This document shows positions 3,001 to 5,848 of a stretch of 11,193 bases of DNA, in pieces (position 1 is the first letter of the stretch; every line of letters starts with the position of its first letter). The DNA is taken from contig CALRDY010000014.1 in assembly GCA_943355045.1 (NCBI GenBank), positions 1 to 11,193 on the forward strand. Reading direction: 5' to 3'. This stretch comes from Candidatus Nomurabacteria bacterium. Its GTDB lineage: Bacteria > Patescibacteriota > Minisyncoccia > Phycocordibacterales > Phycocordibacteraceae. The notes beneath the pieces are model-generated. The model was not told the origin of the DNA and searched no databases. It worked only from the letters and a program-made list of their open reading frames with translations. Position numbers and translations under genes: made by a program.

Positions 3001-4959
3001 ATGTTCGTCATTCGCCGAGAACCCCACAATCCGCTCCTCTCGCCGCAACGCGAGCGCCCATGGGAGTCGATCGCGACATTCAACCCTTCGGTCGTCCGCA
3101 CCAAAGACGGCGTGCATCTTTTTTATCGCGCACTCGGAAACCCGGATGCGCTCGGGGCGCACCCCGCTCTTTCAACCGTCGGTATGGCCTTCGCTGAAGA
3201 CGGCGTTCACTTCCATTCACGGCAACAAGTCATCGTGCCGCAAGAATCATGGGATACCTTCGGCTGCGAAGATCCGCGCGTAACGTTCTTTGAAGGCCGC
3301 TGGTACTGTTTCTACACTGCGCTCGGCGGCTGGCCGTTCGGCCCCGACAATATAAAAGTCGCCGTCGCCGTCGGCGACGCGCCTGATGCTTTTACCGAGC
3401 GGCACCTCATCACGCCCTTCAATGCGAAAGCCGCGACGCTCTTTCCCGAGCGTATACATGGCGAGATCGTACTCCTGCTTACGGTGCACACTGACTGGAC
3501 TGCGGAGCATCCGCGCCCGACGATCGCGCTCGCGCGCGCGAAGCGGATCGAGGACTTTTTCAATCCAGAATACTGGCATCAGTGGCACGACCATCTCGCC
3601 GACCACGCGCTCCCCGAACTGCGCCGCGTCGATGGAGACCATGTCGAAGTCGGCGCTTCGCCGCTGAAGACCGCTACCGGCTGGCTGCTCATCTACTCCT
3701 ACATTCAGGAGTATTACAACGAACGCAATCGCATCTTCTCGATCGAAGCTGCGCTTCTCGACGCAAAAGATCCCCAGAAGCTCATCTCCCGCACGGAATC
3801 CATCCTCGTGCCGCAGGAGATCTACGAGGAGTACGGCCTCGTGCCGCATATCGTCTTCCCCACGAGCGCCACGCTTCGCTCCTCGACTTCGCTCGGGACA
3901 AGCGACCAGATGCTTGAGATATGGTATGGCGCGGCGGACACCGTGTGCGCCAAAGCGAGCATGAAGCTCGCCGACCTCCTGCGCGCGCTCGACCCCGAGC
4001 GACCTGCGCGCACATTCATCCGCGCGACGCAGAATCCGATCCTCACAGCTAAAGGAGAGGGTTTCGAAAGCCGCGACGTCTTCAATGCCGCGGCGATCGA
4101 TCTCGATGGTTCTGTATACATCCTCTATCGCGCGATGGATGCGCTGAATACGTCGACCATCGGCCTCGCGATATCAAGAGACGGCATCACTATCGACGAG
4201 CGCTTGCCGGAGCCCATCTATGTGCCGCGCGAAAGCTTTGAAATGAAGCGTGGCACTCCCACCGGTAACTCCGGCTGCGAAGATCCGCGCATCGTGCGCA
4301 TCGGCGACACACTGTACATGACCTACACGGCCTACGACGGCGTCCGTGCGCCCTCCGGCGCGATCTCATCGATACGCGTCGATGATTTCCTCGCGCGGCG
4401 ATTCGATCGCTGGAGCACACCATTTCTGCTGACCCCCGAAAACGTGGATGATAAAGATCTCGCGCTCCTGCCTGAAAAAATTGATGGGAACTATCTGCTC
4501 TACCATCGCATCAATAACCAGATCTGCGCCGACCTCTTACCCGACCTCATCTCGGGGAAACGCGCGAGTCGCTGCATTGAGATCATGACGCCACGCCGCG
4601 GCATGTGGGACGGAGCAAAAGTCGGCGTCGCAGCGCCGCCGATCAGAGTCGGCGATAACTGGCTCATGATCTACCACGGCGTCTCGCGCCACAGCAAGTA
4701 CCGCCTCGGCGCCGCGCTCCTCGACCCATCCGGCACCGTCGTCCTCGCCCGCACCGCCGACCCGATCTTCGAACCGTTGGAAAAGTATGAGCAAGAAGGC
4801 GAGGTCGCGAACGTCGTCTTCTCCTGCGGCACAGTCGTCCGCCCCTCGACTCCGCTCGGGACAGGCGGCGATACGCTCTTCCTCTACTATGGCGCAGCCG
4901 ACAAGGTCATCGGCGTCGCGACCGCCTCGCTCGCGCATATCGTTGAAGCTCTAACATGA
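3001..4959 (+). CDS. Tandem double-domain GH130 protein
   Basis: This 652-residue protein has two complete GH130 beta-propeller domains in one chain, where typical members have one domain of roughly 300-400 residues. Domain 1 (about 1-335) starts directly with RREPHNPLLSP and has FNPSVV, LFYRALG, GCEDPR with Asp91, LFPERI and WYGAADTV. Domain 2 (about 338-652) has QNPIL, ILYRAMD, GCEDPR with Asp428, LLPEKIDGNYLLYHR, NWLMIYHG with His559, YRLGAALLDP and YYGAADKV. Domain 2 keeps both the HR and YHG motifs typical of phosphate-using members. Domain 1 reads LLLTVH and IYSY (Ser233) there, so it may be hydrolytic, a binding module or inactive. No signal peptide or membrane helix is seen, so the protein is probably cytoplasmic. 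There is no clear Shine-Dalgarno site; the ATG lies 3 nt after the previous stop, which suggests coupled translation. Both domains carry the interspersed repeat in the same loop. Likely substrate is a beta-mannan or mannoside, by family only. Confidence 0.9.
   Translation: MFVIRREPHNPLLSPQRERPWESIATFNPSVVRTKDGVHLFYRALGNPDALGAHPALSTVGMAFAEDGVHFHSRQQVIVPQESWDTFGCEDPRVTFFEGRWYCFYTALGGWPFGPDNIKVAVAVGDAPDAFTERHLITPFNAKAATLFPERIHGEIVLLLTVHTDWTAEHPRPTIALARAKRIEDFFNPEYWHQWHDHLADHALPELRRVDGDHVEVGASPLKTATGWLLIYSYIQEYYNERNRIFSIEAALLDAKDPQKLISRTESILVPQEIYEEYGLVPHIVFPTSATLRSSTSLGTSDQMLEIWYGAADTVCAKASMKLADLLRALDPERPARTFIRATQNPILTAKGEGFESRDVFNAAAIDLDGSVYILYRAMDALNTSTIGLAISRDGITIDERLPEPIYVPRESFEMKRGTPTGNSGCEDPRIVRIGDTLYMTYTAYDGVRAPSGAISSIRVDDFLARRFDRWSTPFLLTPENVDDKDLALLPEKIDGNYLLYHRINNQICADLLPDLISGKRASRCIEIMTPRRGMWDGAKVGVAAPPIRVGDNWLMIYHGVSRHSKYRLGAALLDPSGTVVLARTADPIFEPLEKYEQEGEVANVVFSCGTVVRPSTPLGTGGDTLFLYYGAADKVIGVATASLAHIVEALT
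3881..3904 (+). repeat. Interspersed repeat copy 2 (diverged), in domain 1 of the tandem GH130 gene
   Basis: These 24 nt match 22 of 24 positions of the other two copies (CTTCG for CTCCG, ACAAG for ACAGG). They encode STSLGTS in the loop before the WYGAADTV strand, at the position equivalent to copies 1 and 3. The CTTCGCTC...ACAAGC variant is also a form I recall for this repeat family. Confidence 0.7.
4840..4874 (+). repeat. Interspersed repeat copy 3, in domain 2 of the tandem GH130 gene
   Basis: These 35 nt are identical to 2830-2864, although the flanking GH130 coding sequence of the two genes is only roughly 75-80% identical by eye. They encode RPSTPLGTGGD between the CGTVV strand and the TLFLYYGAAD strand. 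Confidence 0.75.
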
Positions 4960-4973
4960 GCTCATTCAAAGGA

Positions 4974-5080
4974 GCGGCTGGCAATACTCTTTCGGAGGCT
5001 CTCGCAGCGCGACGGCGCGAGAGCGAGGCGGATTTTCAGCAGAAAATCACGCCGTACTCCGAAAGAGTATTGCCAGCCGC
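4974..5080 (+). other. 107-nt structured intergenic element (three-way junction)
   Basis: A perfect 24-bp inverted repeat (4974-4997 with 5057-5080, starting GCGGCTGGCAATACTC) closes a region holding two more hairpins. Hairpin 1 pairs 4998-5005 with 5017-5024 (8 bp, GCTCTCGC/GCGAGAGC, 11-nt loop). Hairpin 2 pairs 5027-5037 with 5042-5053 (11 bp with one bulged A at 5049, AGCA loop). Only GA separates the hairpins and GTA follows the second. The element begins 14 nt after the tandem GH130 stop and ends 9 nt before the HAD ATG, so it covers the place where a ribosome-binding site would be. There is no T-tract on the + strand, so it does not look like an ordinary terminator. It could be a processing or stability element, a translational control element, a small structured RNA, or a MITE-like insertion; no target-site duplication is visible. 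Confidence 0.8.
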
Positions 5081-5089
5081 ATACCCCCT

Positions 5090-5848
5090 ATGTACAAATT
5101 AATCCTATTTGATCTCGACGGCACACTTGCCGAGAGCAAGCAGCCGATTACGAGCGAGATGGCGACGCTTCTCACACGGCTTCTAGCTGCTACGCGCGTC
5201 GCGATCATTTCCGGCGGCGCTTTGCCGCAATTCCTCTCGCAGGCAGTCACGGAACTCCCGCACGGAGCAAACCTCGCACATCTCTACCTTCTTCCGACGA
5301 GCGGCGCAGCGCTCTACGCATATGACAATGGCGACTGGAAAAAAATATACGAGGAACGCCTATCGGAAAAAGAAGCGTACGCAATTGAAGCGGCGATGCG
5401 CGCGGCCGGCGCCGAGACCGGCCTCATCGATTTTTCAAAACCAGTATACGGAGAACGCATCGAGTATCGCGGCGGACAGGTAACGCTCTCCGCACTCGGC
5501 CAGCGAGCGCCGCTCGACGAGAAGAAAGCGTGGGACCCCACCCATACGAAACGCTCCGCGCTCCGCAAATACATTGCGGAACGGTTACCTGAGTTTTCGG
5601 TCAGCATCGGCGGCGCAACCTCTATCGACATCACGAAACACGGCGTCGACAAAGCGTACGGAGTCCGGAAGCTCTGCGAACGCCTCGGCATCCGGGAGTC
5701 AGACGCGCTGTATGTGGGCGACGAGCTTGGCGCCGGAGGAAACGACGAAGCCGTCTTTAAGACGGCTTCGCAAACACACGCGGTATCCGGTCCCGAAGAT
5801 ACGATGCGACTCATCGAATCCCTAGTGGCTGGCACTACAAAAGATTAA
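5090..5848 (+). CDS. HAD-IIB family protein, phosphomannomutase-like
   Basis: This is a 252-residue cytoplasmic HAD superfamily protein with a C2-type cap. Motif I is FDLDGT with nucleophile Asp8 and acid/base Asp10; motif II is SGG at 41-43. The cap spans roughly 80-185 and contains ERIEYRGGQ, TLSALGQ, GGATSIDITKHG and DKAYG with the motif III lysine at 178. Motif IV is GDELGAGGND at 200-209. Cap motifs and length fit the eukaryote-type phosphomannomutase branch (mannose 1-phosphate to mannose 6-phosphate) and its bacterial relatives annotated simply as HAD-IIB hydrolases; a sugar phosphatase is the main alternative. Its place after two GH130 genes favours mannose 1-phosphate as substrate, which is context inference. 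The ATG at 5090 sits directly before the conserved LILFDLDGT. There is no Shine-Dalgarno site or -10 box; the structured element ends 9 nt upstream. The 3' end overlaps pyruvate kinase by 4 nt, tail to tail. Confidence 0.87.
   Translation: MYKLILFDLDGTLAESKQPITSEMATLLTRLLAATRVAIISGGALPQFLSQAVTELPHGANLAHLYLLPTSGAALYAYDNGDWKKIYEERLSEKEAYAIEAAMRAAGAETGLIDFSKPVYGERIEYRGGQVTLSALGQRAPLDEKKAWDPTHTKRSALRKYIAERLPEFSVSIGGATSIDITKHGVDKAYGVRKLCERLGIRESDALYVGDELGAGGNDEAVFKTASQTHAVSGPEDTMRLIESLVAGTTKD
5746..5770 (-). terminator. Possible terminator of pyruvate kinase, inside the HAD gene
   Basis: This is a perfect dyad with 12-nt arms around one central base (arm CGAAGCCGTCTT). Read on the minus strand it lies about 75 nt past the pyruvate kinase stop and is followed by a moderately T-rich stretch, TCGTTTCCTCC. 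On the + strand it lies in the coding sequence for EAVFKTAS, just after motif IV, with no T-tract. The GC-rich stem resembles the hairpin at the window end (both contain GCCGTCT/AGACGGC). It may instead be a chance effect of the coding sequence. Confidence 0.4.

Follow-up and report, generated by a model that had tools for sequence, protein, structure and literature searches.

A covarying three-way-junction structure between a GH130 and a HAD gene is probably a resident copy of a MITE-like mobile family of Patescibacteria

In the Candidatus Nomurabacteria contig CALRDY010000014.1 (assembly GCA_943355045.1), the gap between the genes for a double GH130 protein and a HAD/phosphomannomutase-like protein is almost filled by a branched structure of 107 nt, which raises the question of whether this structure serves the downstream gene or belongs to something else. 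The window, that is, the whole stretch of 11,193 nt that was analysed, had been given a first-pass annotation, in which the structure was proposed, among other possibilities, to control translation of the HAD gene, to protect or process the mRNA, to act as a small RNA, or to be a MITE-like element. Our results favour a form of the last proposal: with a probability of roughly 0.7, it belongs, as a resident copy, to a non-autonomous, fold-back, MITE-like mobile family of Patescibacteria. The features of the locus are given in Table 1.

Table 1. Features of the 107-nt element and its surroundings (positions in the window)
Feature	Positions	Strand	Basis
Element: outer stem and three-way junction	4974..5080	+ (modelled strand)	sequence, folding, BLAST, covariance model
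Outer stem, left arm	4974..4997	+	folding and arm complementarity
Hairpin 1 (H1), GACG loop at 5011-5014 in the family fold	4998..5024	+	folding and family comparison
Hairpin 2 (H2), AGCA loop at 5038-5041, bulged A at 5049	5027..5053	+	folding and family comparison
Outer stem, right arm	5057..5080	+	folding and arm complementarity
GH130 protein gene, upstream context	3001..4959	+	
HAD/phosphomannomutase-like gene, downstream context	5090..5848	+	
Possible terminal-repeat remnant resembling the GAACTCATTTCAAA end of genome G089	4958..4971	+	by eye; weak; one substitution, one deletion

The three-way fold with its perfect 24-bp outer stem is real: the two arms show unbroken complementarity over 24 positions, and the minimum free energy (MFE) is -80.3 kcal/mol, compared with a mean of -35.96 (sd 3.68) for shuffled sequences. 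With a z score of -12.05, and with none of 200 shuffles folding as well, the view that such nesting is unlikely to have arisen by chance was borne out. The opposite strand is nearly as stable (-78.5). The joints between the stems are as short as had been described, and H2 has the 7+4 bp and the bulged A that were expected of it. For H1 the MFE structure gives 8+2 bp; commoner in the family is an inner stem of 4 bp closed by a GACG loop, with an internal loop of the GA type. The element indeed ends 9 nt before the ATG, and no Shine-Dalgarno sequence is visible by eye in 5081-5089. A scan of 4850-5200 for promoter- and terminator-like sites found none, and the window stem is not followed by the T run of an intrinsic terminator. 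At the gathering score, Rfam contained no family matching the window element, which gave two sub-threshold miRNA matches only, and six loci gave tRNA matches only.

This structure is one of many. A BLAST search of its own 452-kb genome identified partial copies elsewhere, whose cores align and whose outer stems do not. A covariance model (R1) built from five of these copies gave 12 matches in the same genome at E <= 1, eight of which were strong (E <= 2e-7), so that several dispersed copies per genome, as expected of MITEs, are present here. R1 matched 38 of 58 genomes (own included) and 18 of 25 genera, with up to 37 matches per genome, and a second model (R2), made from 108 aligned matches, matched 32 of 286 genomes and 25 of 247 genera, own genus included, at E <= 1e-4 when genomes were sampled evenly across the phylum; the E-values of both large searches, which used strict filters, are rough. 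Named matches to one exact pattern came from 16 stretches, including Kaiserbacteria, Nomurabacteria, Nealsonbacteria, and other Parcubacteria. There was no match to the element in plasmids, and viral contigs gave 0 matches to one exact pattern. Thus, the covariance-model search that had been proposed as a check found homologues with preserved pairing, and the accompanying search for dispersed copies had a divided outcome: copies do lie at unrelated loci of the own genome, but identical copies are confined to genomes with bursts. Variant copies were noticed as well: a larger, diverged one at L008:1501-1622 on contig C29 of the own genome was not listed by the model, and at L290, L058, and L059 an additional hairpin inserted in H1 or H2 enlarges the copy to about 128 nt. 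Among the matches listed in the open-licence literature, no description of this family was found.

What the copies share is the centre of the fold. In 128 distinct cores with a two-hairpin fold, AGCA forms the H2 loop 111 times and GACG the H1 loop 69 times, and 107 cores have a bulged A in the 3' strand of H2. The outer stems mostly differ between loci yet remain paired, and in several copies, by eye, the outer stem is interrupted by a further internal loop of the GA type. The compensatory changes by which the fold was to be judged are found throughout its modelled part: all 25 modelled pairs have changed on both sides (103 distinct aligned sequences, 751 cells), and the covariation score was 0.728, compared with 0.192 for shuffled data and at most 0.13 when the partners were slid, in an alignment that was fitted to the model and is therefore biased towards it.

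The relatives of the window's genome make it possible to follow the GH130-HAD site itself. The HAD protein is present in 63 of 92 genomes of the genus, and among 30 HAD loci that were fetched, one of which lacks GH130 upstream, the gap between the two genes is 20 nt or less in 16, 39-53 nt in 5, and 130 nt or more in 8. R2 matched the site in three of the 30 loci, namely those of the own genome, G002, and G080. Between the own copy and that of G002, eight of the 24 arm pairs show two-sided differences and none a one-sided one, while the core differs at 2 of 59 positions; between the own copy and that of G080, six arm pairs differ on both sides and three on one, the core differs at 4 of 59, and the G080 arm consists of 21 Watson-Crick pairs, 2 G-U pairs, and 1 mismatched pair. 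Judging from these alignments, the copy appears to have been inherited by at least three species, with arms that turn over in matched pairs and a core that is constrained. Template switching between the arms could match them without selection, which would leave the constant core unexplained. At another pair of loci in the own genome and G002 (L013 and L053), unlike at the HAD site, the same 22-nt inner arm is found despite flanks that are 84% identical. The idea that the core invades pre-existing terminator hairpins does not fit the HAD site, at which 16 of 30 relatives are nearly gapless. By eye, L155 and L157 look like enlarged relatives, and other long hairpins unmatched by the model occupy the GH130-HAD slot in L163 (G065), L174 (G107), and L170 (G014); the ends of L163 and L174 resemble the G089 terminal repeat.

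A second property of the arms is their strand polarity. On the modelled strand outside the modelled region, 34 G-U, 9 A-C, and 36 other mismatches were counted (p 1.7e-4) in the 73 of 143 copies with distinct arms and a gapless run of at least 8, copies that are not fully independent. Other bounds gave G-U to A-C ratios of 58:17, with a scoring that favours G-U, and 35:13, and a weaker excess was found inside the model (46:26 in the outer 9 pairs and 19:9 in the hairpins). When 77 copies were divided by the direction of the host gene, the ratios were 15:5 for antisense, 7:2 for sense, 7:1 for inside sense, 3:0 for inside antisense, 4:2 for convergent, and 0:2 for divergent copies, all of which are small counts based on crude gene calls. 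The polarity appears to follow the element and not the host gene, and this favours the view that the element itself passes through a single-stranded form, rather than being selected by way of the mRNA of its host gene.

Evidence for mobility was found in several genomes. In G056, 10 fetched copies are near-alike including their arms, and their ends, TGAATTACGAAACTC, are the ends of a 973-bp insertion sequence (IS) with a DDE transposase gene at L259:1511-2311 (PF13612), for which IS982 is the best NCBIfam fit (104.2 bits, under the cut-off of 130). The longest word shared by the left and right flanks of the copies averages 6.6 in G056, compared with 4.34 for permuted flanks (0/800 as high), and 5.6 in G037, compared with 4.49 (27/800 as high); the signal in G037 is weaker, and two of five copies there show no target repeat. 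In G037 and G056, several further miniature elements (L266-L276, L260-L265), about 100-320 bp long, were seen to carry these IS982-like ends around different interiors, and an IS66-type transposase gene (PF03050) directly adjoins the IS982-like element in G056 (L259:146-1396). In the window's own genus, G089 gave 38 matches to the dnaE-region query, two of which are dnaE itself; among 20 fetched copies, the median number of core differences is 5 in 67 positions and the maximum 9, and both terminal inverted repeats are recognisable in 10 of the 20, at a length of 149-160 bp. The G089 end, given as GAACTCATTTCAAA and also as GAACYCATTTCAAA, was found in 4 of 9 genomes of the genus and not in the own genome. 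No suitably spaced pair of ends that would mark an autonomous partner IS was found in these 9 genomes with up to one mismatch. For the window copy, no terminal repeats shared with an IS were found, the possible remnant upstream of it has no right counterpart that we could see and was not recovered in the own genome by an exact-pattern search allowing 1 mismatch, and a search around the own-genome copies gave no target duplication. At the L024 site, no empty allele was found in G013, and elsewhere only one flank matched. RAYT-driven REP movement was considered as the motor and set aside: the covariance model gave 0 matches in 30 Y1 loci, and Y1/RAYT genes were not found in several copy-rich genomes (G051, G046, G016, and G032). 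The own genome (G000) contains three Y1/RAYT-like genes, on C8, C4, and C31. The MITE-like option of the first-pass annotation is thus strengthened by the dispersed copies, the burst in G089, and the IS ends with short target repeats in G056 and, more weakly, G037, and qualified by the existence of homologues with preserved pairing.

Copies are also found inside protein genes. In-frame insertion in protein genes, as reported for Rickettsia palindromic elements, was found here in prmC, between PRPETEWW and LDLCAGSG, with 12 model matches in 11 of 30 fetched loci, and in dnaE, within the HHH_6 match, in L057 and L072. Every prmC copy is in the sense orientation and open in frame, and several core types and arms are represented. 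The prmC linker measures 58-105 aa in 10 loci with a match and 35-61 aa in 14 without, lengths that exclude L289 and four loci without a match; one further matchless locus has a linker of 84 aa. PrmC is the best NCBIfam match of the protein, somewhat below the cut-off. A second kind of insert, with the peptide FSVV-LG-AARSATEN or similar and unmatched by the model, is present in the prmC linker of L281, L282, L295, and L297. The dnaE site comprises 20 nt in G027, which is without the insert, and 131 nt in G013, with flanks that are 98-100% identical; it was considered as a clean insertion site and not retained as such, because base differences cluster near it, and the case may therefore be one of allele exchange instead of fresh insertion. 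The gap between the genes for type B L31 and prfA (named after a check of one L31 and one RF1, the latter under its cut-off) contains copies in 8 loci, all antisense, and their core types differ by eye, which suggests repeated arrival of the element.

A further subclass lies next to tRNA genes. In 21 loci, picked as weak-scoring copies that looked tRNA-adjacent, a same-strand tRNA was found upstream in 14, within 85 nt in 13 and at 200 nt in L131, and in 11 of the 14 the core is followed by a 16-37 nt direct repeat of the 3' part of the tRNA, which starts at the T-loop CGA/CAA in 9 of 11. The left arm of these copies approximates by eye the inverse of the tRNA repeat. In L048 and L080 the parts are arranged likewise at what appear to be ends of protein genes, the repeats being 13 and 18 nt long. 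The duplicated tRNA 3' part (L063-L152) resembles integrase attachment sites, and in L150 a 17-nt direct repeat surrounds the element at the apparent start of uvrA, as if the gene start had been duplicated. Repeats of 16-37 nt do not look like an ordinary transposase product. Arms derived from the target fit the tRNA-adjacent copies, L048, and L080, and were rejected as a general rule, as no copy of the target was found around the own-genome copies.

Taken as a model, a full element of this family would be about 150-160 bp long, as in G089. It would have inverted repeats at its termini, a long paired arm containing an internal loop of the GA type, and the three-way junction in its centre. A transposase provided in trans would act on the terminal repeats, as may be surmised from the core that shares its ends with the IS982-like element in G056. 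The junction with its bulged A would be maintained by a need of the element to fold, at some step, as one defined single strand of DNA or RNA, a need to which the covariation and the G-U polarity point. The copy in the window would have been inherited by at least three species while its arms changed fast in matched pairs and its core slowly, and any effect on the HAD gene would be a by-product of an insert that separates stop and start codons lying close together in most relatives.

Dedicated control of HAD translation by a cis-acting regulator, the reading that the position of the element 9 nt before an ATG without a visible Shine-Dalgarno sequence invites, and to which its retention in three species with a near-constant core lends something, is very improbable: just 3 of 30 HAD loci have a model match and 16 of 30 are nearly gapless, the family is found next to unrelated genes in either orientation, and a G-U excess found in sense and antisense copies alike speaks against a regulator of the host mRNA. 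A putative side effect on HAD translation is possible. It is also unlikely, if somewhat less so, that the element is a domesticated 3'-end structure for mRNA protection or bidirectional termination that spread once and is now kept for function. By crude gene calls, many copies begin no more than a few tens of nt from a stop codon; by eye, the G046 and G051 arms are A-rich and then T-rich like those of bidirectional terminators; and the core constraint at the HAD site would agree with a function; but the window copy has no T run, copies lie within prmC and dnaE, and placement between convergent (20) and divergent (17) genes, again by crude gene calls, is about equally frequent.

The most serious alternative is that another enzyme moves the element as folded single-stranded DNA or RNA, with the junction as recognition site and the IS ends of some lineages as secondary captures. 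We consider this less probable than movement by a transposase in trans. In its favour, the junction is the part common to all lineages, the 34:9 polarity extends to antisense copies (15:5), and most of the long tRNA repeats start at the T-loop. Against it, no recurring enzyme gene adjoins the copies, the listed neighbour clusters being by eye ordinary genes or orthologous sites, the Y1/RAYT results above offer no candidate, and an ordinary DDE IS accounts for the ends in G056. GC skew at the copies (mean -0.013, 50 of 137 positive), taken as a measure of replication-strand bias, is confounded by gene direction and was set aside. Against the MITE-like reading itself, a dead insertion would not explain a HAD-site core with 2 of 59 changes beside arms with 8 of 24. 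The shared junction, the strand polarity, and the tRNA subclass go beyond known MITEs and leave some room, at perhaps one chance in a few and overlapping with the MITE-like reading, for an unknown single-strand mechanism. Tentatively, the copies might even represent a phylum-wide mobile class that has only a covarying three-way junction in common, which an enzyme would recognise in single-stranded form, as DNA or RNA. Some arms would then derive from the target (tRNA 3' ends), the core could move from the ends of one insertion sequence to those of another, and prmC would be entered repeatedly in frame.

Patescibacteria genomes are very small, and yet some carry tens of copies of this family, and prmC and dnaE have been entered with the frame kept open. 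A strong covarying intergenic fold in such genomes is not by itself evidence of a regulator. The question raised is what keeps the three-way junction constant while the flanking stem turns over in matched pairs. We know of no MITE family that combines a covarying three-way junction with locus-specific arms.

Several described repeat families resemble this one in part. The bacterial MITEs reviewed in PMC10969869 are likewise short, non-coding, and dispersed, with inverted repeats and, as in G056, ends shared with an IS; here, in contrast, a covarying three-way junction is present in all lineages and the arms are locus-specific at most loci. Rickettsia palindromic elements, which the same review describes as palindromes of ~100-150 bp inserted in frame in genes, are similar in size, shape, and placement when compared by description and not by sequence, whereas the present family has an unrelated host group, one conserved junction with variable arms, and most of its copies seen so far outside genes. 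The MRSC-65-2 motif shares many copies per genome, strong covariation, and mixed orientation, and is set apart by its description in PMC11109978, where it appears as one long stem carrying a UYCCGG repeat instead of a three-way junction. REP/REPIN sequences with RAYT are also dispersed palindromes that possibly act as single strands, whereas the element described here is longer and branched, and no link to a Y1 gene was found for it.
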